From positions 1 through 40,079 of the IMG/VR virus record IMGVR_UViG_3300044618_000932: a DNA stretch of 40,079 nt, one strand, 5' to 3'. Position 1 is the stretch's first letter; each line of letters opens with the position of its first letter. The DNA comes from a virus. Positions 4,277 through 34,626 of the stretch are shown here, piece by piece. The position numbers and the translations under genes are program-made. The notes under the pieces were generated by a model. The model had not been told where the DNA came from. It did not search any database and worked only from the letters and a program-made list of their open reading frames with translations.

Positions 4277-4389
4277 TCACATTCTTTATGTACTTCAGGT
4301 GGCCAAATAACAAGCGCACGTTCAACTGTTCCGCAATGAGTGCAGTCAGGGTGTGCGCGGGTGAACTCAAAGAGCGGTATGGAATTCAA
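4192..4389 (-). CDS. Small Cys-rich protein with TTG start (65 aa)
   Basis: A frame opening at TTG (4389-4387), preceded by GCGGAGCATC, encodes CTHCG (residues 16-20) and CECIC-H (37-42), a plausible single zinc site, followed by a basic C-terminus (KTKPRVKRSR). It overlaps the methyltransferase C-terminus by 23 bases and the whiB 5' region by 85 bases. That heavy overlap is the main doubt. In favour are the paired Cys motifs, the GGAG at good distance, and the otherwise poor ribosome site of whiB, which would benefit from coupling. Function unknown. Confidence 0.55.
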   Translation of the reverse strand: MNSIPLFEFTRAHPDCTHCGTVERALVIWPPEVHKECECICHQHRKTTNSPQSGGKTKPRVKRSR

Positions 4390-6214
4390 GAAGATGCTCC
4401 GCTATCCATTGCGCTACTGGCGATGCGACACCGTTGCCACACATCTTGTATCGGGTGGTGTCAGAGTTTGTTGTTCCGTCAGCTCGATACAGAGTGTGGT
4501 TGTCAGGCCATCCCATTAGGCGTTCGCATTCAACTGGTGTAAGCCTGCGTACAACCATGTCTGCAAGTACACCTGTTGATTGTTTGGTGCCGGCACGAAG
4601 AGCCTGGTGAACAGGACCACCCAAGGCATCGTTGTATTCATCGTATGCTTCAACTACGAGGTGTTCTCCGCGTGATGAGGGTACGCCACCATCGCCACCT
4701 GATCGCAGCGTTGGTGCAATGTCGGTTTCAACGATTAATGATTCGCTTCCTCCAACTAGGTCGCCACCATTTGCTTTGAGTGTTCCTACACCTTCGGTGT
4801 ATTGGGCAAATGAAGTGGGTGTGTAGGAAACAGCTACGCCTGATGCGCTCATTGTGTCAAGCGTGTATGCAGGATCACCAGCGTTGCCGATGCCTGTTCC
4901 GTTTTGGTGTTTTTCAATTTCTCGTACATCGTCAATTGGTATTGCATCAGTAGCTACTGCTGGCACGAATGCGTTTGTGATAGTTGGTGATGGGTCACCA
5001 TCTTCGCCAACACCTAAACCTTGACGATTTTGACTGTCAAGTTTTTCAGGGTCACGCAAGGCATTTCGAGTATCAATCGGTATAGCGACTGCTTGACCTG
5101 CTCCACCTACACGCAATGTTGGGAAAGTTTCTTCAGAAGGTTGAGCATCGAGGCCTTGTGTGTGGCTAAAACCAATTGCGCTTGGCTGGAACAACACTTG
5201 ATCGTTACTGCCGGCGAGAGTTAACGAAGTATCCGAAAGCAGCGGACCTTTGCCACCGCCTGGTTTACCTTCACGCTGGCGCATCAACACGGGTTGCTCA
5301 TCAACGGCAACCATCGGAACGTTGTTGCCTCCTGTACCCATCCGCGACATCAAAGTTTGCACAGGCGATTCATAAATACGCACATCATCAACGCGTGTGC
5401 CATCAATCAACATTGGCTCAACAACAAGGTTGTAATGCTCGGAGCCACTAGGACCACCAGTACCTTTATGCCATTTAGATGTCACAGATGTAGTTAAAAC
5501 ATCATCATCAGTAGAACCAGCTGCCCAAGGCAACTCAGCTTCTACTCGTTGATTAGGTCTCCCGCTACCTGAATCAAAGCTTTCTCCAAGCGTGGAGGCA
5601 AGTGCTTTCCTCTCCTTGTTGCGCGTCGAAGTATTCCTGCGGCGGCCTTCGCTGACAGGTAATAACGCTTCTCCACCTCGTTTGAGGATTGAAGGATCGA
5701 AGCAAGCGATGACGAACACTCGTCTACGCCTTTGGGGGACTCCATAGAACTGTGCGTCCATGCAATGCCATTCGACGTGATGACCCCCGATGTTAACCAT
5801 TTCTTGGAGGACTGCGTCGAAGTCAGCTCCTTTGTTGGAGCTGAAGGCTCCAGCCACGTTTTCCCAAATAGCCCATCTTGGGTATTGTCCATTGGTTGCA
5901 TCTCTCATCTCCTTGATGATTCGTGTTGCTTCAAAGAAAAGGTTCGAACGAGAACCTTCCATAAGTCCAGCTCTTTTGCCGGCGAGTGATAAATCCTGGC
6001 ATGGTGAGCCAAAAGTAATTAGGTCAACTGGTGGTAGTTCTGCACCGTTAACTTCGGAAACATCCCACCACTTCGGCACTTCAGGCCAACGGTAAGTAAG
6101 TACTTCTTGGCAATGCTTGTCCCATTCAACCTGGAATCCACATTCCCAGCCTGCGTTATCAAATCCAATATCGAATCCTCCAACGCCAGCAAAAAGACTG
6201 CCGTAAGTTGGCAT
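4367..6214 (-). CDS. dcm-like: DNA (cytosine-5) methyltransferase (615 aa)
   Basis: It methylates cytosine C5 in DNA from S-adenosylmethionine, probably protecting phage DNA from host restriction. Motif I is LFAGVGGFDIGF (8-18), motif IV is GSPCQDLSLAGKR with catalytic Cys72, motif VI is WENV (117-120), motif VIII is QRRRRVFVI (161-169), and motifs IX-X are RRLTPVECERLMGW (~556-569) and CGNGVASPVAQW (~592-603). The stretch between motifs VIII and IX spans about 370 residues, far longer than in ordinary ~330-420 aa enzymes. It is built of recurring segments around TL-x-GG or PT-L/I cores (TLRVGG, TLKANGG, TLRSGG, PTITN, YTLDT), so the enzyme may recognise more than one target. The start overlaps the SSB stop (TGATG). 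No endonuclease partner is visible. Confidence 0.93.
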   Translation of the reverse strand: MPTYGSLFAGVGGFDIGFDNAGWECGFQVEWDKHCQEVLTYRWPEVPKWWDVSEVNGAELPPVDLITFGSPCQDLSLAGKRAGLMEGSRSNLFFEATRIIKEMRDATNGQYPRWAIWENVAGAFSSNKGADFDAVLQEMVNIGGHHVEWHCMDAQFYGVPQRRRRVFVIACFDPSILKRGGEALLPVSEGRRRNTSTRNKERKALASTLGESFDSGSGRPNQRVEAELPWAAGSTDDDVLTTSVTSKWHKGTGGPSGSEHYNLVVEPMLIDGTRVDDVRIYESPVQTLMSRMGTGGNNVPMVAVDEQPVLMRQREGKPGGGKGPLLSDTSLTLAGSNDQVLFQPSAIGFSHTQGLDAQPSEETFPTLRVGGAGQAVAIPIDTRNALRDPEKLDSQNRQGLGVGEDGDPSPTITNAFVPAVATDAIPIDDVREIEKHQNGTGIGNAGDPAYTLDTMSASGVAVSYTPTSFAQYTEGVGTLKANGGDLVGGSESLIVETDIAPTLRSGGDGGVPSSRGEHLVVEAYDEYNDALGGPVHQALRAGTKQSTGVLADMVVRRLTPVECERLMGWPDNHTLYRADGTTNSDTTRYKMCGNGVASPVAQWIAEHLLEFHTAL

Positions 6215-18358: not shown

Positions 18359-19246
18359 TCAGTCTCTGTTCAGATACAGCGGATATTGAGAATCAAGCTT
18401 GGTTGCTTCAGCTGTGATGCGGTCACGCCGCAAACGTTGCAGTTGGTTGATGCTGTTTGATACTGCACCTGCTGGTACTTCATCAGCGCGGCGAGTGTCG
18501 CCTTGTGACTCTGTGAAGTTGCGCTTGATTTCACGCGGAGCCATTAACCTAATTTGTGCGCCAAGAATCAAAATGTCTTCGGCTGTGATGGGGAAACCAA
18601 CGTTTACCTGTAGGTCGTCTGTTTCTTTAATGATTCGATTAAACGGTGCTTTGTAGGTAATACGAAGATTTCCAGAACGAGTAGGTTCGTTGAACTTCAA
18701 TGCCGTACCTGATCCAAAGTCAGATGTTGGAAGGTTGCGAACAATTCCAACCTTACGAATCATCGGATAATCGGTTGACAAATAACGAAGACGTACATCA
18801 AGCAACTCAATTACGTCACCGATAGAAGGCAAGTTAATCATCGTGTCGCTACCGTTGTAGTTCAAGTCAAGGCTTTTTACCCGATAAAGGCCGTTTACTG
18901 GCGCAGCCAAATCAGCTAAATCGTCGTTGAAAGCTTCCATGATTTGGTTGCGTGGGAATCGTGGGTCAACGATGCACATAGATCCAGCGGTATGTGCTGC
19001 TGCTGTAGTGCCATTGAATCCGCGTTCTACGGTTGCTGTCTTTGTGCCGGAAACAATTTCCCATATATAAAGAAGCTCTGAATCAATCTCAATAATTGCG
19101 CCAGGTTGGATGCCTCGCGTTTCATAAGAAAATACAACAGTTGTTGCAGTAGCAGTTAAAGCAACAGAAATTTTGTTGCGTTCTTCTACCACCCCTGATA
19201 GGAGTTGGCGTTGAGTCCTATTGATGAGATGGGCAACTGTTGACAT
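18359..19246 (-). CDS. Tail-adaptor-like structural protein (295 aa)
   Basis: I start at ATG 19246 (MSTVAHLINRTQRQLLSG), just after the glycosyltransferase stop; a longer frame reaches into that gene. The opening helix with an N-R-T-R-L pattern, followed by beta segments (GAIIEIDSELLYIWEIVSG, ATVERGFNGTTAAAHTAGS) and a C-terminal helical part with PREIKRNFTESQGDTRRADEVP, recalls head-to-tail adaptor/tail tubular A-type proteins. The segment FPRNQIMEAFNDDLADL and the gene order (adaptor, then large propeller protein) support a short-tailed virion. No weak spot such as a frameshift is visible. Confidence 0.72.
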   Translation of the reverse strand: MSTVAHLINRTQRQLLSGVVEERNKISVALTATATTVVFSYETRGIQPGAIIEIDSELLYIWEIVSGTKTATVERGFNGTTAAAHTAGSMCIVDPRFPRNQIMEAFNDDLADLAAPVNGLYRVKSLDLNYNGSDTMINLPSIGDVIELLDVRLRYLSTDYPMIRKVGIVRNLPTSDFGSGTALKFNEPTRSGNLRITYKAPFNRIIKETDDLQVNVGFPITAEDILILGAQIRLMAPREIKRNFTESQGDTRRADEVPAGAVSNSINQLQRLRRDRITAEATKLDSQYPLYLNRD

Positions 19247-19253
19247 GAGGCAA

Positions 19254-20291
19254 TCATAGACGATAGAACACCATGTTGTTTTGAAGCCTTTCATTATTGG
19301 GTTCCATGCTCAAAGCAAGCAGTCCGTGCTTCTCTGCTTCCTTTTGGAAGCCAAGCTTGTATGACGAGTACGCCATCAAGTCATGCACTAAGGAACCCCA
19401 AGCAAAAGCTTCGCAGAGATAGTCAAGTGGTTTCTCTGTGATAATTAAAGCCCTGTCGCAGGCCGATTTGCATCGAACCCAATCTTGGCGGTTGTAATAC
19501 AGTTGCGCCAACTCCACCCATGCTTCTCGTCTGTCGGGGCATTCAGCAACAGCCAAATAGAGGTGATGTTCGGCAGCATCAGGCCTCATCTTTGCCATGT
19601 ACCGGTGCGAAGCTGCGCGTTCAGGGTTCCAACGGGACAGCTTCAAATGTTCGGAAAAATGGTATTGAGCTAGTCCATGTTGTCCGTGGAAGAAGTATTC
19701 ACGGGCTAGGTAGAACTGGTTGCGATCATCGCTTGGTTCTTCTTCTACAGCTAGTTTCAGTAGGGGTAGGTATTGGCTGCGGGATTTGGTGTGGTCAGGA
19801 TGATGATGGATTTCTAACCCGTCAACCCAATACTGGTTTTCTACACCGTCGTATTTGAGAACTTCATGGACTGGGTGTTTCCATTTGTAGCCATGTCGGG
19901 CGTGGATTTTGTCGCCACCATAGGTGAGTCCTTCGGATCCGTCTTCGTTCCATGACCAAATGTATTTGTATCGGGGTCGGGTCACACCTTCAGGTATGGC
20001 TTCTAGGGCTTGTCGCCAGCCTGGTTGTAGGACTTCATCTACGTCTAGCCATATCACATAGTCAGCGTCATCGGGGATGAGACTCATGGCGTGGTTGCGG
20101 GCGTGGTCAAACCGCCAAGGGTCGATTTTTCTGATGTGGGTTTCAACGCCCATCTTGTTTGAGAGGACTACGGTTGCATCGGTGGAAAGTGTGTCCACCA
20201 AGATCCGGTAGTCAGCTTCTTTACATGATTCGGCCCATCGTGCTACGAACTGTTCTTCGTTTTTAGCGATGGTTGCTACAGCTATTTTCAT
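19254..20291 (-). CDS. Glycosyltransferase family 2 with TPR tail (345 aa)
   Basis: GT2 fold: IAVATIAKNEEQFVARW at the N-terminus, LVDTLSTDAT, WRFDHARNHAM, and YVIWLDVDEVLQPGW with the metal-binding D-x-D. The C-terminal ~150 residues contain helical TPR-like repeats (AEHHLYLAVAECP, AWVELAQLYYNRQDW, AEKHGLLALSMEPNNE). I start at ATG 20291, behind GAGGGGCA; an upstream in-frame TTG six codons earlier is weaker. It transfers a sugar from a nucleotide sugar, probably to a virion or host protein. Lying between fibre and tail genes, it is likely part of a virion-glycosylation pair with the enzyme at 23526-24608. Confidence 0.88.
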   Translation of the reverse strand: MKIAVATIAKNEEQFVARWAESCKEADYRILVDTLSTDATVVLSNKMGVETHIRKIDPWRFDHARNHAMSLIPDDADYVIWLDVDEVLQPGWRQALEAIPEGVTRPRYKYIWSWNEDGSEGLTYGGDKIHARHGYKWKHPVHEVLKYDGVENQYWVDGLEIHHHPDHTKSRSQYLPLLKLAVEEEPSDDRNQFYLAREYFFHGQHGLAQYHFSEHLKLSRWNPERAASHRYMAKMRPDAAEHHLYLAVAECPDRREAWVELAQLYYNRQDWVRCKSACDRALIITEKPLDYLCEAFAWGSLVHDLMAYSSYKLGFQKEAEKHGLLALSMEPNNERLQNNMVFYRL

Positions 20292-20312
20292 TGCCCCTCT
20301 TTTCTTCAATAT

Positions 20313-20729
20313 TTAATGCGTGTGACCGTGATCGTGATGTTGTGATTGTTGTTCTTGCAAAGTTATTACTGCTTGGCTTTCTTCAGTCATGTCTGTAACA
20401 ACTTTCATAATTCCATGATATGTATCGTATTCCCAAAACTGCCAAACATAAGGCTGACCCTTTACGGGTGGATTAGGAATCTCTATCCATTCCCCAATAT
20501 TGTCAACTGTTACACCTTGGGTTAAATCACGCATTGCCTGTCTCCAAATACGCCACTCAAGTTTTGTTACATCATCCAATGGTGAGTCAGGTGTTTGTGT
20601 CCAGTCAGATTCTGCAAGCATCCATCCACGAATAGATTTTAATGCTTGCAGAAATTCTTCAGGTGTTTCCGCAGAGCCAACAGCATAAGGAAACTTTGGG
20701 ATGGGTGTGTTTTTTAATGGGAGTTTCAT
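20313..20729 (-). CDS. Tail fibre assembly chaperone-like protein (138 aa)
   Basis: Residues ~24-70 contain EEFLQALKSIRGWMLAESDW, LPDSP-like PDSPLDDV, and WRIWRQAMRDLTQG, the signature of phage tail-fibre assembly chaperones (WR--RQ-LRDL). Such proteins help fold or trimerise fibre proteins. The C-terminus is notably His-rich (QQSQHHDHGHTH). It lies two bases downstream of the collagen-like fibre gene, the expected place. The start at 20729 has CAAGGTATAACA upstream. Confidence 0.82.
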   Translation of the reverse strand: MKLPLKNTPIPKFPYAVGSAETPEEFLQALKSIRGWMLAESDWTQTPDSPLDDVTKLEWRIWRQAMRDLTQGVTVDNIGEWIEIPNPPVKGQPYVWQFWEYDTYHGIMKVVTDMTEESQAVITLQEQQSQHHDHGHTH

Positions 20730-20731
20730 TG

Positions 20732-22906
20732 TTATACCTTGATAATAAAGTTGAAAGCAAGGAACGGGTTGGTTACATCTAGTGGGTTGTTCGCAAATCC
20801 ACCGTTACCACTAGAGCCAGTAAAGTTTGCCAAGTCGGTAGAGTGACTGTGTGCCGCACTGCGCCCACCAGTGCCAAAGTTGTGTGTGTGACCAGATGAA
20901 ACGGTATTGCTGTTGTATTGAGCAGGATAACTACCATCGGCAGTGTACGCTAAGAACCCTCCACCAGCATATCCAAACAATCTAATACCAATAGCATGAA
21001 CATGGTTTTGATTTATGTCGCCAGTAGTTCCACTATGGCTATGGTCGGCAGATTCCGTACCACTAGAAGTAGCAGGATGGTCATGGTCAATAGCGTGAGT
21101 GTGTGTCGGCAAGTTAGCGGAGTTAATCGTCTTAGACTCACCACCACCAGCAGTACCCAAAGCACGGTTAGTTAAACCAGTACCAGTACCCGCACCAATA
21201 GGCATACGACTACGAGTATCAGGCAAATTAAACGTAGTAGAACCATTACCCGCACCAAAAGTGACACCGATAGCAGTGAACAAATCAGCGTATGTCGTTC
21301 GATCAACTGCCGTACCGTCACAAGCCAACCATCCAGTAGGAATAGTTGAACCTGCATACATTTGCACAGTTCCAGCAGGAGTTACTGTTCCTGTCGGACC
21401 TGTCGAACCAGTCGGGCCTGTCGCACCTGTCGGACCGGTAGGACCCTGTGGACCTGTAGGACCATCGTTACCTTGAATACCTTGAGCACCCTGAATACCC
21501 TGTGGACCCTGAGCACCAGTAGGACCAGTAGGACCCGTCGCCCCGTCAGTACCATTTGTTCCTGTTGCACCAGTAGGACCAGTAGGACCAGTTGCGCCGA
21601 CAGAACCAGTAGCACCCGTAGGACCCGTGTCTCCTGTTGCACCAGTAGGTCCTGTCACAGTAGAAGCCGCACCAGTAGGACCAGTAGCACCAGTAGGTCC
21701 TGTAGGTCCAATGTTTGCAATTACTAGCAATACGTCAAGACCATCAGCAAAACCTGTCGTGCCTGTACCACCTGAAGAAACAAAAGAAACAGGAATATCA
21801 ATCCAAGAGTTCACGTGATCCGTAACGGTTCCTGACACAACAAATCTTTGAACGTTTGCAGAGTTAGCAGAGTCTTGGATATAGATAGTGTCGTTCGGTT
21901 TTAAGATCGCCAAGAACAAGTCAATGTCAAAACCGTCTTGGTCAATGTGGTTTATTTGTAGCTGTGTCGCAGATGTTTGCGTTGCATTGTTGTACGCCAA
22001 CAAGCCAGTTCCAGGGTTACCTGATGTGGTGTTGGTATCAATCAGATACTCATAGAAACTTGAAGACTGTCCTTGTGGGCCTGTGGGTCCCGTAGGTCCG
22101 GTGGCTCCTGTAAGCCCTGTAGCCCCTGTAGGTCCTGTCGCCCCAACCTCAGCCATCAACGCCCATTCAAAAGGATTAGCACCAGGGGTTTTACCAATAT
22201 TCGGGAAGATAACACTAACCCAAGAAGAACCATTATAGGAAACAACGTCATTCAAATCGTAGTTTGTTGCAGCGTTCCATGGACCTTCCCAAACGAAACT
22301 TGCACCTGTCGGTCCTGTAGGTCCCGTAACAGTTGAATCTGCACCTGTCGGTCCTGTAGGTCCCGTAGGTCCTGTAGGTCCTGTTGGTCCATCGTTTCCT
22401 TGGACACCTTGGATACCTTGAGCACCTGTTGGTCCTTGTGCACCAGTAGGTCCAGTGGGTCCGATAGGTCCTGTAGGTCCAGTTTCTCCCTGTGGACCAG
22501 TAGGACCAGTAACACCCTGGATACCTTGCGGCCCAGTAGGTCCAGTAGGACCTTGTGCGCCAGTAGGTCCTGTGACACCTTGTGGTCCTGTGACACCTTG
22601 AATACCCTGTGCACCCGTAGGTCCTGTAGGGCCTTGTGCGCCAGTTGGACCCGTAACGCCTTGAATACCCTGCGCGCCTGTAGGGCCAGTTGATCCTGTA
22701 GGACCAGTAACACCTTGGATACCTTGAGCACCCTGCGGTCCTACCGCACCTTGCGGTCCAGCTTGTGAAGTTCCCACCACAACAACACGATTACCGACAG
22801 ACAAAGGAACATTAGAATCGGTAAGTGCAACAACATACTGATTGTCTTTACGGTAAACGGTAGTTGTCTCGTTTGAAATCGCAACTGTGACGCTGGTGGT
22901 CGCCAT
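20732..22906 (-). CDS. Collagen-like tail fibre with C-terminal phage tail collar domain (724 aa)
   Basis: Three blocks of G-x-y triplets, rich in GPT and GPQ (about residues 50-200, 255-280 and 400-515), should form a collagen triple helix. Between them are beta domains (residues ~203-250, starting with [19 protein letters not shown], and ~285-395). The C-terminus from ~517 is a phage tail collar domain: [20 protein letters not shown] and [14 protein letters not shown]. It then carries many H-x-H pairs ([24 protein letters not shown]), like metal-binding sites in T4 short tail fibre proteins. It is the main receptor-binding fibre candidate. A chaperone and a glycosyltransferase gene follow. 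Confidence 0.93.
21362..22740. repeat. Collagen-coding triplet repeats
   Basis: Two main clusters (21362-21712 and 22300-22740) and a short one (22070-22142) of 9-base units based on GGNCCNACN on the coding strand. Third bases vary, so the DNA units are not identical, but recombination between blocks could still change fibre length. Confidence 0.85.
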
Positions 22907-22908
22907 TG

Positions 22909-23250
22909 TTATCTCGTTACGTCAGCGTCAACTGTGACTGTTCCACGAAGAACTGTTGAAATCACTCCTGAAGCGTTCTCTTGCAAATCCCAGTAGTAAT
23001 AACCAGGTTTTAGCTCTGCGGAATCTGTAGACGACAAAACACACGTTACCTGCCCATTAGATCCGTCTGTAACTGTGCAGGTAAAAGATGCGCTAACGAT
23101 AGCAATATCAGGGCTAGTTCGAAGCTGAGCCGTATAAGTACGGCCCGTTATATTGATAGGGGTTGTTTGATCATCCTGTGTCAAAGAAACGACAATGGTT
23201 TCGGTGTCTCCGCGGGTGATATTTAAGTCAAGAGTTGCAGGTACAGCCAT
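22909..23250 (-). CDS. BppU-N-like baseplate/fibre-anchoring protein (113 aa)
   Basis: [51 protein letters not shown] and [16 protein letters not shown] match the pattern of the BppU N-terminal domain, a small beta sandwich that anchors receptor-binding proteins to the virion (known from lactococcal phages). It is encoded directly before the collagen-like fibre and may connect it to the tail. The whole protein is this single domain, shorter than classical BppU. Confidence 0.75.
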
Positions 23251-23253
23251 AGG

Positions 23254-23526
23254 TCACCACTTTACCTTATTTGCCCAGTACGCCGCCGACATTTTACCCT
23301 TAGCAATATTTTTTGCATGGCGCGCCTTGAAAGATTCGCGGCGTTTCCGATAGGCCTCAGATTCTCCTGATTTCTTAGGCGAACCAGAAACGCCCTGCTG
23401 TCCAAACCTAATAAGTTTTACTTGGTCACCTTCTTTGGCAAGAACAGCGTGTGACTTAGATGCGTTCGGGGTGCGCTTAGGTTTGTTGTAGCCAGCAAAC
23501 TTTTCGCCTCGATATTCAATAGCCAT
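23254..23526 (-). CDS. Small basic phage protein (90 aa)
   Basis: Strongly basic. The core VKLIRFGQQGVSGSPKKSGESEAYRKRRESFKARHAKNIAKGKMSAAYWANKVKW has the RR-SF-ARH ... YW--K-W pattern of a family of small proteins widespread in marine and actinobacterial phages (I recall it as DUF6321-like). No function is established that I know; the basic charge suggests nucleic-acid contact in the virion. The start overlaps the preceding stop by one base. Confidence 0.78.
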   Translation of the reverse strand: MAIEYRGEKFAGYNKPKRTPNASKSHAVLAKEGDQVKLIRFGQQGVSGSPKKSGESEAYRKRRESFKARHAKNIAKGKMSAAYWANKVKW

Positions 23527-24608
23527 TAGATCTCCAAAACTTTTGCATCAGATAACACCTGAAGAACACCTTCAGGTACTTGGTACTCTACCCCAGGCAA
23601 AAAGTCATAGTGGGCGCGTCCGATATCGCAAGACATCTTTTTCTTTACCTTAATAGGGACAGTCACAACAACAGGTTCCCAAATTGGGTCTGCTAATAAT
23701 GTCCCAACTGGCACAGCTTCAAGCAAAGCTTTGGTGGCTTTACGCCATGACCAAGCCGATGCTGATTTGGCATTGACAGAAGCTTCGCTTTTGTGGTTGC
23801 TCCAGTTCCGATAATGGTCCAACATCAGCTCACACAACTCATCAAGGTTAGGTTCATCCCAGTTGCCAATAGTCATAGCAGGACTACGGGTAGTGGATAC
23901 AACCCCGGTAGCAAGATAAGAAAACTGTTCTTGGCCTGTCGTGTCTGAAATAATTGTTGGCATACCCAAAGAAATAGATTGCAACGGCATCAACCCAAAA
24001 CCCTCACCACGGGACGCAGCTATAAAAACATGGCCTTGCCTAAACCATTCACGCTGGGTTTCTTCATCCATCCATTTACGGTGCATCACAATACGAGGAT
24101 GCTTCACATCGGGGGTGTCATTGGCATGAGGCGCAGCTTTAATATGTAGTTCCGCATCGGGCAGGTTTAGACGTTGAAAAGCTTTAACAACAACATCTAA
24201 ACCTTTACGGAACCATAATGAACCGCCGGCAAGAAACTTAAACGGCCCATCAGGTTCTGTGTAACCAGACCAAAACTTATTATCTACACCTAGCGGAACC
24301 ATACGTACATCAGAATGATGTTGACTAAACAGTTCAAGGTTGTGTTGGCACGGCACAATAATTTGGTCGTATCTTGGAAGCCACCGTAAAAAATTGTTAG
24401 GTAACTGATCCGTTTCCCACATCGTAAAAGAAGCTCGATGTTGACCAGATGTAAAACCCCTTGGACCATCAGGGGTGTTCATGTAAACCAAAACAGAAGC
24501 ATCATTATCTAGCGTTACTGTTTTCGGTAGGGCAGATTTAAAGCCGGCAAGCATTGAGCCATAACCAAACTTTGGGTCTTCAACCCCTTGCCAAGATTGA
24601 AAGTTCAC
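23526..24608 (-). CDS. Glycosyltransferase, GT4-type (360 aa)
   Basis: GT-B fold: the donor-binding half has PLGVDNKFW, FKFLAGGSLWFRKGLDVVVKAF, and the diagnostic FIAASRGEGFGLMPLQSISLGMPTI, with the E-x7-E-like signature of family 4. The N-terminal acceptor half includes FTMWETDQLPNNFLRWLPRYDQI. A short C-terminal extension (VKKKMSCDIGRAHYDFLPG) has beta character. Translation starts at GTG 24608, overlapping the upstream TGA (GTGA). It lies with structural genes upstream of the fibre and is likely to work with the GT2 enzyme on a virion protein. Confidence 0.88.
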   Translation of the reverse strand: MNFQSWQGVEDPKFGYGSMLAGFKSALPKTVTLDNDASVLVYMNTPDGPRGFTSGQHRASFTMWETDQLPNNFLRWLPRYDQIIVPCQHNLELFSQHHSDVRMVPLGVDNKFWSGYTEPDGPFKFLAGGSLWFRKGLDVVVKAFQRLNLPDAELHIKAAPHANDTPDVKHPRIVMHRKWMDEETQREWFRQGHVFIAASRGEGFGLMPLQSISLGMPTIISDTTGQEQFSYLATGVVSTTRSPAMTIGNWDEPNLDELCELMLDHYRNWSNHKSEASVNAKSASAWSWRKATKALLEAVPVGTLLADPIWEPVVVTVPIKVKKKMSCDIGRAHYDFLPGVEYQVPEGVLQVLSDAKVLEI

Positions 24609-25650: not shown

Positions 25651-26616
25651 TTAGGCGTTTACACCAATGCTTGAAGCAGATTCGATGCGGCGCAATGCTT
25701 CCTGACGGAACACACCGTAACCAACGAAATGCTTCCAACCAACAGGCTGGAAACGCTTCAACACGTCAACCACTTCACCGTAGACCATCGTTGGCTGATC
25801 GCCGTAGCCAGCTGCGTTAGCAACAGCCTTAGCGAGAGCCTGACGACCCATGATGAGTGTTCCGTATACGTCAATTGTGCCGGCCGAACCGCTGTTGTCG
25901 GATGCGTTAGCGAACAGAGGCGCACGAGCGGACTCCATAAAGCGAACGCCTTCAAACATACCAATTTCACCGTTGTAAATGCCCTCAGGATTTACGTAGT
26001 TAGCAGGGGTACGCCATGCGGCTGCATCGGTTGCTGAACGGAAGTCGTACGACACGTCAGGGTGGATGAAGCCGACGTATGAACCGCCGATTGTTGGGAC
26101 GTTTGCACCGCGCAACTGAGCAACAACTCGACGAACATCGTTCGCTGAAAGTGTGTCGTCAGAGTTAACTGTGGTACGGCTGGATGGGTCAGTTGCACCA
26201 CCGGTTGCGTACACGACGTTTGTTCCTGCTTGGAGTACGTCACGGCAAACGGTGTCAATGCTGATACCAGCGTTGTAACCAACAGCGTTAGCTGCTACTG
26301 GGTCAACGTTGATGAACGATGTTGCACGAAGCTTGGCTGTCGTAACAACTGCATTGCCGTATTCACGCATGGTTACCGAAACTTGGCTGTCGCTCAAAGC
26401 AACAGGAGTTACGTCAACAGTCTCGGAAAGTTCTGAAGAAGCAACTGCCAAGTCTTGGAAGATGGTGAATGTGTGGGTTGCACCTGGGCTGGTGGCATTG
26501 GTTGCCTCAACTTCAGCAAAACGATCGAAGTAAAGCTCTGGACGCAAAGCGAAATATGCGAGCTTCTCAAACGCTGTCTGGTTGAGATCAAGGGATGAAA
26601 CCTGTGTATAGGCCAT
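25651..26616 (-). CDS. Major capsid protein, N4-gp56-like (321 aa)
   Basis: The sequence pattern fits the N4 gp56 family of HK97-fold capsid proteins: QTAFEKLAYFALRPELYFDRFAE near the start, HTFTIFQDLAVASSELSETVDVTPVALSDSQVSVTMREYGNAV (the E-loop/strand region), SIDTVCRDVLQAG, ANDVRRVVAQLRGANVPTIGGSYVGFIHPDVSYD and a late LKRFQPVGWKHFVGYGVFRQEALRRIE. It follows a scaffold gene and is followed by a strong terminator. The start at 26616 has TTTAGGAGAACCCCAA upstream. Confidence 0.9.
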   Translation of the reverse strand: MAYTQVSSLDLNQTAFEKLAYFALRPELYFDRFAEVEATNATSPGATHTFTIFQDLAVASSELSETVDVTPVALSDSQVSVTMREYGNAVVTTAKLRATSFINVDPVAANAVGYNAGISIDTVCRDVLQAGTNVVYATGGATDPSSRTTVNSDDTLSANDVRRVVAQLRGANVPTIGGSYVGFIHPDVSYDFRSATDAAAWRTPANYVNPEGIYNGEIGMFEGVRFMESARAPLFANASDNSGSAGTIDVYGTLIMGRQALAKAVANAAGYGDQPTMVYGEVVDVLKRFQPVGWKHFVGYGVFRQEALRRIESASSIGVNA

Positions 26617-29766: not shown

Positions 29767-32700
29767 TTACTCCAATTCAGCCTGAAACTCTTGTTCCCAA
29801 ATACGCCTAAAATCAGGATTAATAGTAGCAAGTTCTTCACCACGCTCAAATAAACTCTTGCGGTAATCAATAGCAGTTGGGTTTTTTTCTGCAGCCAAAG
29901 AAACACCAGCCTTTTCTTTCAACATATTTATTGCTTGTTCACGGTTTTTTAAATATTCACGGATTGTATTTGCAACTGGATCATTTGCAGTACGTTGATC
30001 AGCAACCAGTTCGTTTACATCAGCAATAAATCTCTTAAATTCGTTGGGATCAAATTTTGCATCGATAGGAAAACCGTTAAAGTTTTTATGAATTCTTTCA
30101 CGCTCTGCCTTTTTTTCCGCAGCAGTAGCATTGGGATTTTTCTTACGGAAATCACGATACAAATACGAACCAACGCGCAACTGAGCTTGCTCCAAACGGT
30201 CAACAGGGTCGTTACGGCGGCGTATTCCAGCATTTAATTGTCGCGACCAAACCGGCATAGACAAAGCACCATCGCCAATAGGCGCAAGATAAGGAGCTAC
30301 GGACTTGTGAGAACGAACCAAATCGGAGTTTTTATTTTCCCAAAGTCCGTAAGCTTCCGAAGCCTCAACACCCTTATAACGTGGATCAAGAGTTGTCTTT
30401 GCACCGATATATACAACTGCGCTTTCACCAAAAGTGTCAATGAACTTTCCAATAGCTGTTTCATAATCTTCGGCTTGCCAAATTTGAAACTGTTTTACCA
30501 TTTCATTTACATAGAAATACTCTGAAAGTTTTTCTTCAGTTCTCATTCTGTAGTCAGGACGTGCAGCTGTCGGTCCAATAAATTGAGACAAAGCACGTAA
30601 CATTGTTAAAGGCCTTGCTTTTGTTTTTGCGTCGTCATGTAAACGAGCTACATCTTCAGAATCATTTAAGTTGTATTCACCAGTTGTACTCATATATGCA
30701 AACAAGTCTGCATAAGTATTCCCATACATGGTCGACAGTTCGTCGGGGCTGTCACGTATCGCTGATAATGCTTTTGTAAAAGAACCTGGCAAAAGGTTTT
30801 CCAACGAAGCGTCACCATAAGGATTGACTAATTTACGGAATGAGTCAGTATCTGGAATATTAAAAGCGTTAAATACTTCAGTTGCAGCAATTTGGAACAT
30901 TGGCCCAACAGAAGGAATGATAGCTAAACCAGCAGAAAGACGCTTTACTGGCGCAGAAAGATTAATACCTTCTTCACCGGTAATTGCTTTAATGATTTGT
31001 CCGGAAAGAGGGAACGTAAACATCATGTCATTAGTAATGGGGTCTTTGTAGATGATTCCACGGCCATCATTGTCCGGATCAAACCCTTCAAGACCCCGGT
31101 AAATCTTTTGCACTTTACGAATTCTTGCTGGATTTTGAAGAAGTTCTCTTGAGTAACGACCGGCTACTTCAGCCCACGCAGCACCAAATGGGGCGATAAC
31201 TCGGAAAGCATCAGTTAAGTTACTTCGTTCAACATTATTGAAAAACAATTCTTCTAAATCAACTTTCGTTCGCGTTGATGCATATGTGTTTAACTGTTCA
31301 ACAGTACCGACACCCGTTCCCTTTGTAATTGCTTCGTCTGTATTGACAAGTATTTGATCGTAAAACTTACGACCACCAACATAAATCTCAATAGCTTTTT
31401 CAGGATTAACAGCATAAACATCGGGCAGTGTGCGCGCAGCATATGTGTCTAGGTCATCAAGCAAACGTTTAGCTTCATCGGCAGACAAAAGACCGGCGTT
31501 TTCGGAAACATTTTTATAGTAAGCAAAACGGAAAGCAGGAGAGCGTTCAGCAAGTTCTGTGAATTTTTGTACCGGCACATCAAAAAACCATTTTGGTATA
31601 GCTGCAAAAGCTTTAAGGGCATCACGGCCACGATATGAAATTCCATCATCAACCACAGGTTTAGTGCGGATCATTGTCCTAGTCCAAGTAGGGAGCAAAG
31701 GATTATTTCCGATATTCATTGCTTCTTTGTGCGCTGTGCGACGTTCATCAATAAATCGACGTGCGCTCATTGAAAAATCGTCACCGTTTAAAGCTGTTCC
31801 GACATCCGTGACTTCAATAACCTTATAAGAATCTGCACCTGGAACCTTGTTAACTTCAAGAACTAAAAAGTTTTTAAACTTTGGTATTCCACTAGGACCT
31901 GTTATATCTTGAACAAGCAGTTCTCCAGCCTTGGGCTTTTTCCCTGTTACAGAAAATCTCATTACTTCTGTTTCATCCCATAGTTCAGAAGCACCAGCAG
32001 GTACGGCGTTGTAACCAGCCAAAACACGAAGTTCGTCAGCACCAAGAGTTAAATTATCGATTTGACCACGAGCAGCAATATCAAACCAGGCTTCTACAAG
32101 CTCACTGTTTGTCATATTGTCTGCATTGGAAATCGGTGCAGAAATTTTATTTAAACCATTATTGATGTCACCAGTTAAGGGGCCATCTTTAAAGTAGCCA
32201 ACAAGTGTGTCACGAGCCTTTACTGCATCATCAGTGCCCTTGTTTAGCCAGTCAACAGCAATTTGAAGTTGACGATCTTGAGGAAGATGTTGAACTTGTG
32301 TCATTAAACGCAAGAAAGGATCGGCATAGGCCTGACGTGCACTATCAAGCCAACCAGTAGTGTAAGCAGAATCGCTAGTATTCACTACTGCTGCTTCACC
32401 AGACCTAACCATACGCATAAGTTGATCTGCTGGATCTTCGACTAGATATTTGCTTTTTTGATTTACAAAACTAATGTAATCCTGCATATCTTCAGCAACA
32501 TCAAAAATGTCTTCTCCTTCATTTACAAATACGCTTCCACCGATAGTACCTGTAGCTCGTTTACGCATCGCAATCAATATGTATTGAAGAGGGTCACTAA
32601 AAAACCCATTCAGACCAAGACGTAGCTGTGCGTCCATTGTGTTGCGCATGATATATCCGATAGATAAAAGCGCATAAGGCTTCCACAAATCATTTTGAAT

Positions 32701-34626
32701 CCACTCTGCAACTGCACTTGCTTGAAGTTGGCGACCATCAGGTGTTAACTTCCACAAGTCATTATTAGTCAAACGACGCAATTGACGAGGATCAGGAAGA
32801 ATCTGAACATTATTCAACATATCCGAAATGGCTAATGGACCAAAAGTTGTTAATTCGCCTTGCCCTAAGTTATAAACAACATCATCTAAATCAGCGCGGG
32901 TCATACCAGCTACTACTTTGCTTGGATGTGTTTCTTTAAGCAAATCGAACAATTCGGTATCAGTCATAAACTGTGTCATGTGCTTAATAAATCCAGCATC
33001 ATCAGTCATGCCATGTTCGTCAATAGCATTTTTTCTAAGAGTATCTATTCCTGAACGGAATTTTTCAACAACTTCTTCAATTACTTTTTGGTCAACTCCC
33101 TGAGCTTCAAGAGCTGTCCAAACAATTCCTTTTTCTTTACGAGGAACGTCGCCCATAAACATACGAAACATTTGGTCAGCGTCAACGCGTGTCCCGGATG
33201 TTCCAGCCCAGTCGAAAGCTTTATCAATTAACTTTTTTCCGTCACCAGAATACGGATCAACTTTTAGAACTTTTAAATAATTTTCAATGTTAAAAATTGC
33301 TTGCACTTTTTCTTGATCAGTACCATGAACAATTAAAGTGTTTTTAGGAACTTTAGAAAACCACATACTTCCACGGAGTGTGTTATATCCAGGTATTTTT
33401 TCTACAAGATTCATTCCCGCAATAGGCAATTCTCCTGATTGTGAAGCAAAAGGAACAAAACCTTGCTTAGTTTCATCAGACAAACGAATAGCTTGCTCAG
33501 CGATAATGCCACGAACTTGATCAGTGTCAGAAACAGAAGCCAAACGACGAGCTTGTTCCGGGCTTAGTTTTCCTCCATAAGCACGAAGAATTTTCAAAGG
33601 GTCAGATTCGTCTGCGGTGCGTTGAACAACTCGTCGGCCACTTGCAGAATTATCAAGCCAGTTAAAAAATTTACTGTTATCAATTGCGTGTTGTTCTGCC
33701 GTAGAAAGCAAACCCATACTTCCGGAAGCAAGTTTACGAGCAGCTGATATTTCGTCTGCTGTTTTCAAGCCTTCAATTGCTTTTCCTGCTTTAACAGATT
33801 TAGCTGCAACTTCAAGAGGCTTACTGACAGGATCGGCATACCACGCAATAGAAGCATCAATTAACCCAGATAAAAAATTATATGGTTTAGATCCAGGAGC
33901 AGAAACTATGTTTGCTGTACCGCGGCCAACAGTATAAGACTCGCCATTTATTTGCCAGCGAAATTGCTTAACTTTCTCTACGCGTTTTTTTTCTGCTTCA
34001 CCAGCAACAAAAAAACCTTCACCGGCTTGATCACCATTTTGAAGTAACGCTCCTAGAGAGGTTGAGGCAAACATTCCTTCAGGAAGGAATGTTCCTTTGT
34101 TCCATCCACCCCATCCCCAATCTTTTCCTTCTACACCAAATTTTTCTTCAGCGTTGGGATCGGTTCTAAGCGAACCATAGTTTGCAATATATTGAGGTAC
34201 GGATTCAGCAGCAGCAGTTACGTATCGAGAAGCTGTTTTGAGTTGATCAACTTTGCCAATGGTATTACCTAAAGTCCATTTAAGCGCGTTAAAAACGCCT
34301 TGCTTAACATTTGGAACCCAACTTTTTTTGGCATACGGGTCTAGCCTGGGATCCGGTGGGTTTTCAACAGGTTTTTCTGTGTTTGCACGACGAAGATAAG
34401 CATTTTGTGCAGACCTTTTAGCAGCAGCATTGATTGTTTCAGGGTCAGCACCAGCTTCAGCTAAAGCCAAAACCACTCCGGTTTCCATGTATGGATGAAC
34501 CTTGTAAATGTCAGCAATGCGTTGAGAAATAATTGAGTCGTTTTTATTTACAGTTTTTTCAGAATTAATTCTGCTAGCTACATCAGAAAAAAGACGCTGT
34601 TGGTCGCGCTTGTCAATCCAGCTCAT
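29767..34626 (-). CDS. Giant internal virion / ejection-type protein (1,619 aa)
   Basis: One uninterrupted frame taking about 12% of the genome. It is rich in charged helices with scattered hydrophobic stretches, e.g. PYALLSIGYIMRNTMDAQL (~655-675) and SAGLAIIPSVGPMFQIAAT (~1220-1240). A C-terminal block reads DAFRVIAPFGAAWAEVAGRYSREL ... RKVQKIYRGLEG ... DPITNDMMFTFPLSG, a pattern I associate with very large virion proteins of short-tailed phages. It is not tape-measure-like (no long coiled coil). No transglycosylase or protease motif is convincing. Likely a T7 gp16-type ejection protein in role; homology is unproven. Start and stop overlap or abut the neighbours. Confidence 0.7.
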   Translation of the reverse strand: MSWIDKRDQQRLFSDVASRINSEKTVNKNDSIISQRIADIYKVHPYMETGVVLALAEAGADPETINAAAKRSAQNAYLRRANTEKPVENPPDPRLDPYAKKSWVPNVKQGVFNALKWTLGNTIGKVDQLKTASRYVTAAAESVPQYIANYGSLRTDPNAEEKFGVEGKDWGWGGWNKGTFLPEGMFASTSLGALLQNGDQAGEGFFVAGEAEKKRVEKVKQFRWQINGESYTVGRGTANIVSAPGSKPYNFLSGLIDASIAWYADPVSKPLEVAAKSVKAGKAIEGLKTADEISAARKLASGSMGLLSTAEQHAIDNSKFFNWLDNSASGRRVVQRTADESDPLKILRAYGGKLSPEQARRLASVSDTDQVRGIIAEQAIRLSDETKQGFVPFASQSGELPIAGMNLVEKIPGYNTLRGSMWFSKVPKNTLIVHGTDQEKVQAIFNIENYLKVLKVDPYSGDGKKLIDKAFDWAGTSGTRVDADQMFRMFMGDVPRKEKGIVWTALEAQGVDQKVIEEVVEKFRSGIDTLRKNAIDEHGMTDDAGFIKHMTQFMTDTELFDLLKETHPSKVVAGMTRADLDDVVYNLGQGELTTFGPLAISDMLNNVQILPDPRQLRRLTNNDLWKLTPDGRQLQASAVAEWIQNDLWKPYALLSIGYIMRNTMDAQLRLGLNGFFSDPLQYILIAMRKRATGTIGGSVFVNEGEDIFDVAEDMQDYISFVNQKSKYLVEDPADQLMRMVRSGEAAVVNTSDSAYTTGWLDSARQAYADPFLRLMTQVQHLPQDRQLQIAVDWLNKGTDDAVKARDTLVGYFKDGPLTGDINNGLNKISAPISNADNMTNSELVEAWFDIAARGQIDNLTLGADELRVLAGYNAVPAGASELWDETEVMRFSVTGKKPKAGELLVQDITGPSGIPKFKNFLVLEVNKVPGADSYKVIEVTDVGTALNGDDFSMSARRFIDERRTAHKEAMNIGNNPLLPTWTRTMIRTKPVVDDGISYRGRDALKAFAAIPKWFFDVPVQKFTELAERSPAFRFAYYKNVSENAGLLSADEAKRLLDDLDTYAARTLPDVYAVNPEKAIEIYVGGRKFYDQILVNTDEAITKGTGVGTVEQLNTYASTRTKVDLEELFFNNVERSNLTDAFRVIAPFGAAWAEVAGRYSRELLQNPARIRKVQKIYRGLEGFDPDNDGRGIIYKDPITNDMMFTFPLSGQIIKAITGEEGINLSAPVKRLSAGLAIIPSVGPMFQIAATEVFNAFNIPDTDSFRKLVNPYGDASLENLLPGSFTKALSAIRDSPDELSTMYGNTYADLFAYMSTTGEYNLNDSEDVARLHDDAKTKARPLTMLRALSQFIGPTAARPDYRMRTEEKLSEYFYVNEMVKQFQIWQAEDYETAIGKFIDTFGESAVVYIGAKTTLDPRYKGVEASEAYGLWENKNSDLVRSHKSVAPYLAPIGDGALSMPVWSRQLNAGIRRRNDPVDRLEQAQLRVGSYLYRDFRKKNPNATAAEKKAERERIHKNFNGFPIDAKFDPNEFKRFIADVNELVADQRTANDPVANTIREYLKNREQAINMLKEKAGVSLAAEKNPTAIDYRKSLFERGEELATINPDFRRIWEQEFQAELE

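Follow-up and report, generated by a model that had tools for sequence, protein, structure and literature searches.

The collagen-like tail fibre gene of the virus record IMGVR_UViG_3300044618_000932 (40,079 bases, analysed over its full length and called the window below) lies between two glycosyltransferase (GT) genes, which raises the question of whether the fibre is glycosylated, and by which enzyme. A sequence-only reading of the window had proposed that the two enzymes, one of family GT4 and one of family GT2, form a dedicated system that modifies the fibre. Only the GT2 half of this proposal held up. This enzyme, which carries a tetratricopeptide repeat (TPR) domain and which we call GT2-TPR, follows the Gly-Pro-Thr (GPT) form of the collagen shaft from virus to virus and has the architecture of SgtA, a known collagen-modifying enzyme. 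Taken together, sequence, a structure model and this analogy suggest that it is probably a dedicated protein O-glycosyltransferase of the GPT shaft. The GT4 enzyme, to judge from its distribution, is not part of this unit.

The extensive GPT triplets described in the sequence-only reading are indeed present. The fibre protein contains 37 of them, and its Gly-X-Y repeats form runs of 47, 9, 5 and 30 triplets. A chance origin was ruled out by shuffling: in 1000 shuffles of the fibre protein, the longest Gly-X-Y run had 6 triplets, as against 47 in the real one. Collagen (PF01391) and Collar (PF07484) domains are joined in one protein, and a tail fibre chaperone gene adjoins it.

The enzyme had been correctly assigned to GT2, but its C-terminal TPR domain was absent from that description. 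A GT-A (GT2) domain, with an LDVDE motif at its putative catalytic site, is followed by the TPR domain, both with Pfam matches over the cutoff, and the protein belongs to phrog_13126, a family labelled beta-1,4-glycosyltransferase. Its neighbours in the window are fibre and virion genes. An AlphaFold model (predicted local distance difference test [pLDDT] score, 93.6) was compared with the PDB using Foldseek and VIA-align. SunS and ThuS came out on top, with Z scores of 22.2, 21.1 and 20.8, and the next family followed at 18.4; for 7msp_A (Z, 22.2), the root mean square deviation was 2.4 over 255 residues. SunS and ThuS thus share the GT2-plus-helical-repeat fold, at about 16% identity. A sequence profile of GT2-TPR matches GmaR, ThuS and SunS and many TPR proteins. 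SunS and ThuS are Cys S-glycosyltransferases of glycocins, and GmaR is a flagellin O-linked N-acetylglucosamine (O-GlcNAc) transferase and antirepressor; their substrates are not collagen. We also asked whether the TPR domain resembles the TPR with which prolyl 4-hydroxylase binds collagen. The Pfam family TPR_P4H matched with an E value of 0.044, below the cutoff, and prolyl 3- and 4-hydroxylase chains from the PDB gave 0.012 to 0.074. Many unrelated TPRs score equally well or better, and we make no such claim.

A similar pair is known from the spores of C. difficile. As described in PMC7157674, SgtA is a 358-amino-acid protein with GT-A and TPR domains, encoded immediately upstream of bclA3; GPT repeats abound in the collagen region of BclA3. 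A purified SgtA fusion adds beta-O-GlcNAc in vitro to Thr of peptides from this region, accepts Ser and is Mn dependent (PMC7157674). The phage pair resembles it in joining an enzyme of about 350 amino acids, with GT-A and TPR domains, to a neighbouring GPT collagen gene. BclA3 differs in being a spore surface protein rather than a virion fibre, and the activity of SgtA has been demonstrated in vitro, that of the phage enzyme being predicted.

Relatives were collected by IMG/VR scans with the GT4 protein (17 loci), the GT2 protein (37 loci) and the capsid protein (best 80 of 494), and by profile scans with GT2 (best 80 of at least 581), the phrog_7578 protein (best 80 of 450) and a short GT2 family introduced below (best 80 of 393). 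Shafts were typed as Thr or Gln by their Y residue. Cassettes bounded by the 113-amino-acid gene upstream of the fibre and the phrog_7578 gene numbered 93, of which 56 are nonredundant at 95% DNA identity. Thr-type shafts with GT2-TPR account for 47 of the 56 and Gln-type shafts without GT2-TPR for 8; the last cassette (L205) is Thr type with neither GT2. Gln-type cassettes, whose shafts occupy the slot of the Thr-type ones in phages of the same lineage, carry a different GT2 of about 260 amino acids, without TPR. The model for this short GT2 was seeded with the 8 proteins of the 8 Gln-type cassettes, so that its presence in 8/8 is true by construction; the wider counts (88 open reading frames [ORFs] and 29 anchors) look beyond the seeds but still include them.

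Using the GT genes themselves as anchors, we obtained 259 viral loci, 120 of them nonredundant at 90% protein identity (91 GT2-TPR and 29 short GT2). Collagen near GT2-TPR was of the Thr type in 62 loci, mixed in 4 and of the Gln type in 0, and 25 loci had none within 5 kilobases (kb). Near the short GT2, it was of the Gln type in 18, mixed in 1 and of the Thr type in 0, with none within 5 kb in 10. With mixed and missing cases excluded, this 62/0/0/18 table gives a Fisher p of 2.8e-18 if relatedness is ignored. GPT makes up 20 to 79% of triplets in the 66 fibres by GT2-TPR and 0 to 3% in the 19 by short GT2. The expected co-occurrence of GPT fibres with the GT pair in relatives was therefore borne out for GT2-TPR (66/91 near collagen, all with at least 20% GPT) and not for GT4. 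Of the 88 short-GT2 ORFs (duplicates counted), 57 have same-strand collagen in the locus, and the nearest is of the Gln type in every case except L265, where it is mixed, GPT free and downstream. GT2-TPR is absent from all loci of these 88 ORFs. When the count is confined to loci of 8 kb or more that lack all ten lineage markers tested, those with GT2-TPR comprise 19 Thr, 1 mixed and 14 without collagen, and those with short GT2 comprise 2 Gln and 2 without collagen. This split indicates that the link between GT2-TPR and GPT extends well beyond the lineage and that the link between short GT2 and Gln is mostly lineage based. In the GPT-free collagen relatives L008 to L015, L074, L077 and L079, GT2-TPR was not seen, several of the contigs ending before its place; a whole-record search of 16 contigs without visible GT2-TPR found it only in that of L005, where the gene lies beyond the locus end.

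The association is with the triplet itself. When the 66 fibres by GT2-TPR were pooled (4,673 triplets), GPT made up 37.0%, compared to 30.8% expected from the X and Y frequencies. In the 19 fibres by short GT2 (1,623 triplets), it made up 0.5% versus an expected 6.1%, about 12-fold below. GPT is below expectation in 19/19 of the latter and in 1/66 of the former. In short-GT2 fibres, position Y is Thr in 1% of the triplets with Pro at X and in 37% of those with Ala at X, which shows that Pro-Thr is avoided and not Thr. Such avoidance where GT2-TPR is missing is as expected if GPT is the acceptor of this enzyme and is retained only in its presence.

We then considered how much of this pattern reflects common descent. 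A maximum-likelihood tree of the phrog_7578 protein was built from 56 representatives of 113 loci: 87 Thr with GT2-TPR, 23 Gln with short GT2 and 3 Thr with none before merging, and 43, 12 and 1 after it. This tree requires 5 changes of shaft type and 6 of GT2-TPR. Four well-supported independent pairs differ in GT2-TPR; the shaft agrees in 3, opposes in 0 and does not differ in 1, which is presumably L006, the only discordant row. The fibre N termini tell a related story. Among 41 of them, the window included, 5/8 of the Gln type have a Thr-type nearest neighbour (L008, L125, L255, L305 and L308, at 74, 53, 67, 43 and 35% identity). The window fibre itself, compared with the other 40, is closest to the Gln-type L255, at 61%. 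Since Thr- and Gln-type fibres have N-terminal anchors in common, shaft dialect and GT appear to switch together while the anchor is conserved. There may then be two interchangeable dialects, each with its own enzyme, GT2-TPR for GPT and the short GT2 for GPQ, the acceptor of the short GT2 being either Gln or the Thr left in GAT, GDT and GST. This extension is possible but doubtful. The short GT2 family is found at L008 13511-14290, L014 15237-16016, L125 17652-18449 and 32 other loci, and its predicted structure is poor (pLDDT, 68).

Many bacterial relatives and some named phages carry the same arrangement. A species-genome scan gave at least 563 GT2-TPR relatives among 592 candidate stretches, and we examined the best 80, mostly from Clostridia. 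A collagen ORF lies within 4 kb in 52/80; the nearest is at most 500 bases away in 47/80, and in 42/80 it lies upstream in the same orientation, no more than 150 bases away. All 55 collagen ORFs in these loci have at least 10% GPT, although a few may be shadow frames. Among loci with full flanks (7.4 kb or more on each side), 22/34 have collagen. GT2-TPR matches occur in 67 named-phage records, of which 7 were examined. Two of these fit: actinophage DSL-LC01 (52% identity) has two GPT collagens upstream of GT2-TPR, and in the fecal contig MT838491 (44% identity) a GPT collagen adjoins it. The isolated 'Ca. Planktophila' phages E7 and F5 are reported in PMC10202952 to encode collagen-like proteins as well as glycosyltransferases.

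From these data we infer a mechanism. The TPR domain would hold the still-unfolded Gly-X-Y chain in place for the GT-A domain, which would attach one sugar, taken from a uridine diphosphate (UDP)-sugar, to Thr at position Y, mainly in Gly-Pro-Thr. GlcNAc is the best guess for the sugar, by analogy with SgtA. Glycosylation would precede the winding of the chains into a triple helix. Hydroxyproline is lacking in most bacteria; the sugars would replace it, making the shaft more stable and better hydrated. They may also shield it, one of the two roles, with the tuning of adhesion, that the sequence-only reading had suggested.

Could GT4 take part as well? The two GT genes do bracket the fibre, its upstream gene and the chaperone in the same direction, as the sequence-only reading had it, with a 90-amino-acid gene that it omitted between GT4 and the upstream gene. 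This layout would suit a dedicated pair in which GT2-TPR adds the first sugar and GT4 extends it on the collagen fibre, and GT4 does fill the slot between the 99- and 113-amino-acid genes in 46/66 nonredundant cases. Its presence, however, does not follow the shaft: 35/47 Thr-type, 10/15 Gln-type and 1/4 untyped genomes have it. It is thus missing from some Thr-type genomes and kept with GPT-poor collagens, including those of the relatives that have collagen but no GPT (L008 to L015, L074, L077 and L079). Conservation of the GTs in relatives without GPT repeats, an outcome named beforehand as refuting the proposal, is what we see for GT4. Searched over their full length, 12 of the 20 records without GT4 in this slot held no copy elsewhere, and the same search detected 2 positive controls, though the records may be incomplete. 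Being neither required for GPT fibres nor restricted to them, GT4 does not form a dedicated pair with GT2-TPR, and we regard stepwise action of the two on the fibre as very unlikely. As for the enzyme itself, GT4 scores 35.2 bits with PF00534 (cutoff, 26.4) and 40.7 with PF13692 (cutoff, 27). The usual GT4 motif is EX7E. Across 21 aligned homologs, E202 is invariant, an invariant Gln (Q210) stands where the second Glu is expected, and about 50 amino acids are added at the C terminus. The gene lies after the head genes. GT4 probably has another target, and a role in capsid or neck glycosylation, proposed by analogy, is only a guess. Glycosylated capsids are reported for mycobacteriophages Che8 and Rita (PMC11256854); like the fibre proposed here, these are phage structural proteins with glycans, but the protein is the major capsid protein and not a collagen.

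GT2-TPR, too, might have another target. Its substrate could be a different virion protein or a glycan of the host surface, and the gene would then merely travel with the GPT shaft on a recombination cassette, since shaft and GT could move together. Distant homologs in five phages do sit in collagen-free virion gene regions, some closer homologs have no collagen on their contigs, and phage glycosyltransferases are often interpreted as DNA or cell wall modifying, according to PMC10202952. We nevertheless find this unlikely, because what GT2-TPR follows is the triplet motif, on marker-free contigs and in bacterial genomes as well, and because fold and architecture are those of peptide and protein glycosyltransferases and SgtA. 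Alternatively, the Thr and Gln dialects could be two glycosylation-free routes to a stable helix, the GTs being bystanders of two fibre lineages. Thr and Gln at position Y have been proposed in PMC8968730 to stabilise bacterial collagens through hydration, and the GPT shaft of L006 has no GT2-TPR. Of the prophage-coded collagen-like proteins EPclA and EPclB of E. coli, EPclA is trimeric, and the recombinant protein is described as stable and unglycosylated; they differ from the fibre studied here in that their commonest triplets are GPK, GPQ and GPA (PMC3368898). What this explanation leaves out is why GPT and not GAT should be avoided without GT2-TPR, and why GPT collagens adjoin the enzyme in bacteria. 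We consider it highly improbable.

Several points weigh against a dedicated GPT glycosyltransferase. The thresholds for Thr and Gln types were chosen after data inspection, and 4 supported independent pairs are too few for a sign test to reach 0.05. Homology to SgtA, judged by domain make-up, is no more than likely. In Gram-positive collagens, position Y is more often Thr than any other residue, at 48% (PMC8968730). Richness in Thr would therefore say little were it not for the comparison with Gln-type fibres; Gram-positive residue habits alone are insufficient to explain the GPT repeat, as other phages of this lineage have a Gln-type shaft at the corresponding place in the cassette. L006, on the same contig as the GT2-less L205, combines a GPT-rich fibre (Y-Thr, 0.76; GPT, 0.29) with no GT2-TPR in 40,306 bases. 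It is close to the window (capsid protein 98% identical [L056, same contig] and GT4 89% identical), and GT2-TPR is present on the contig of L005, which is just as close. Of the 25 viral GT2-TPR genes without collagen within 5 kb, 9 have at least 5 kb upstream; among these 9, L191 has a shorter GPT collagen beside the enzyme gene, L154 has one 6.5 kb away and L163 has one elsewhere on the contig. Whole-contig searches of 12 contigs without nearby collagen left 9 without any match, including one of 73,960 bases (L153, L160, L169, L178, L184 and L197, plus L177, L157 and L053). In bacteria, no collagen lies within 4 kb of 28/80 homologs, and 12 of these 28 loci have the full flanks defined above. 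Finally, the homologs of PaBG, Lu11, HRDY3, Alexandra and Afa-NA1 (28 to 35% identity) have virion genes as neighbours, and no collagen run occurs up to 8 kb away; for this reason the wider GT2-TPR family may glycosylate other virion proteins.

Some of these loci have further features. In L177, L178 and L184 (8001-9740), on contigs without a collagen match, GT2-TPR is part of a 579-amino-acid ORF with an extra C-terminal region, and in L177 this ORF adjoins Gly-rich fibre-like proteins. In DSL-LC01 (L339 6433-8004), a tryptophan halogenase gene overlaps the GT2-TPR start, downstream of the two GPT collagens. Two different capsid-to-collagen blocks, L066 9502-13439 and L131 2-3132, stand at both ends of 3300027759_000160 (42,135 bases), which is either a chimeric assembly or a real duplication.

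The cassette genes of the window are all on the minus strand, downstream of the capsid gene (Table 1). After that gene come three small genes, GT4, the 90- and 113-amino-acid genes, the fibre, the chaperone, GT2-TPR and the phrog_7578 gene. The 113-amino-acid gene had been called a BppU-like anchor. It does lie upstream of the fibre, but the name rested on a Pfam match to BppU_N (14.4 bits; cutoff, 23.1; E value, 0.032) that falls below the cutoff, and phrog_1084 is a better match. Two other minus-strand genes of the window deserve mention. A 615-amino-acid DNA methyltransferase (4367-6214) has a PHROG match covering 610 residues but 285 profile positions, and its residues 61 to 207 also match a primase family; by sequence, it may carry a large insert, as do some other actinophage methylases described in PMC9957025. 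Near the portal gene, a 1,619-amino-acid protein (29767-34626) has no PHROG match at an E value of 0.001, and its best matches in relatives are about 19 to 54% identical.

Table 1. Features of the fibre cassette and its surroundings in the window (aa, amino acids)
Feature	Coordinates	Strand	Basis
Collagen-like tail fibre, 724 aa	20732..22906	-	PF01391 E 3.8e-39; PF07484 E 4.2e-22; PHROG tail fibre families; triplet counts
Anchor segment at the fibre N terminus (aa 1-49), similar in some Thr- and Gln-type fibres	22760..22906	-	Comparison of N termini
Collagen run 1, 47 Gly-X-Y triplets (aa 50-190)	22337..22759	-	Triplet count
Collagen run 2, 9 triplets (aa 255-281)	22064..22144	-	Triplet count
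Short collagen run, 5 triplets (aa 400-414)	21665..21709	-	Triplet count
Collagen run 3, 30 triplets (aa 419-508)	21383..21652	-	Triplet count
Collar domain, C-terminal side of shaft (aa 512-569)	21200..21373	-	PF07484 E 4.2e-22
GT2-TPR, 345 aa: GT-A (about aa 1-170) and TPR (about aa 171-345)	19254..20291	-	PF00535 E 2.7e-6; TPR_2 E 2.3e-6; phrog_13126
Tail fibre assembly chaperone (Phage_tail_APC)	20313..20729	-	PF16778 E 1.2e-10
113-aa protein upstream of fibre, phrog_1084 (function unknown), present in many relatives	22909..23250	-	PHROG; BppU_N below cutoff
90-aa conserved protein	23254..23526	-	phrog_7595
GT4 glycosyltransferase with extra C-terminal domain of about 50 aa	23526..24608	-	PF13692 E 3.5e-10; PF00534
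phrog_7578 protein (function unknown), downstream cassette border and comparison anchor	18359..19246	-	PHROG; alignment
Major capsid protein, anchor for finding relatives	25651..26616	-	phrog_1357 E 8e-77

In kind, such a system is already known from bacterial spores. GPT triplets of Bacillus BclA carry O-linked glycans. The BclA of Bacillus anthracis is described as a collagen-like spore protein with glycans (PMC8968730), and so belongs to a bacterial spore rather than a phage. Among viruses, Mimivirus L230 is a virus-coded collagen lysyl hydroxylase and glucosyltransferase that glycosylates viral collagen (PMC9614988), but it is bifunctional, targets hydroxylysine and comes from a giant eukaryotic virus. 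We found no report in the open-access literature searched (top-ranked matches only for broad queries) of GT2-TPR acting on phage collagen fibres or of a pairing between dialect and GT. Measured against these matches, its use in a phage fibre and the pairing of two dialects with two GTs would be new.

Collagen repeats occur in many phage fibres, and how they are stabilised without hydroxyproline in bacteria and phages is largely open. Our findings offer a testable rule, GT2-TPR with GPT and short GT2 with GPQ, and this rule proposes a substrate for the orphan family phrog_13126, with its hundreds of viral and bacterial relatives. If two dialects with their own enzymes do exist, the joint swap of shaft and enzyme under a conserved anchor would amount to a written collagen modification code in viruses. 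And if GT2-TPR acts as we propose, glycosylated collagen fibres would be a widespread feature of virions.

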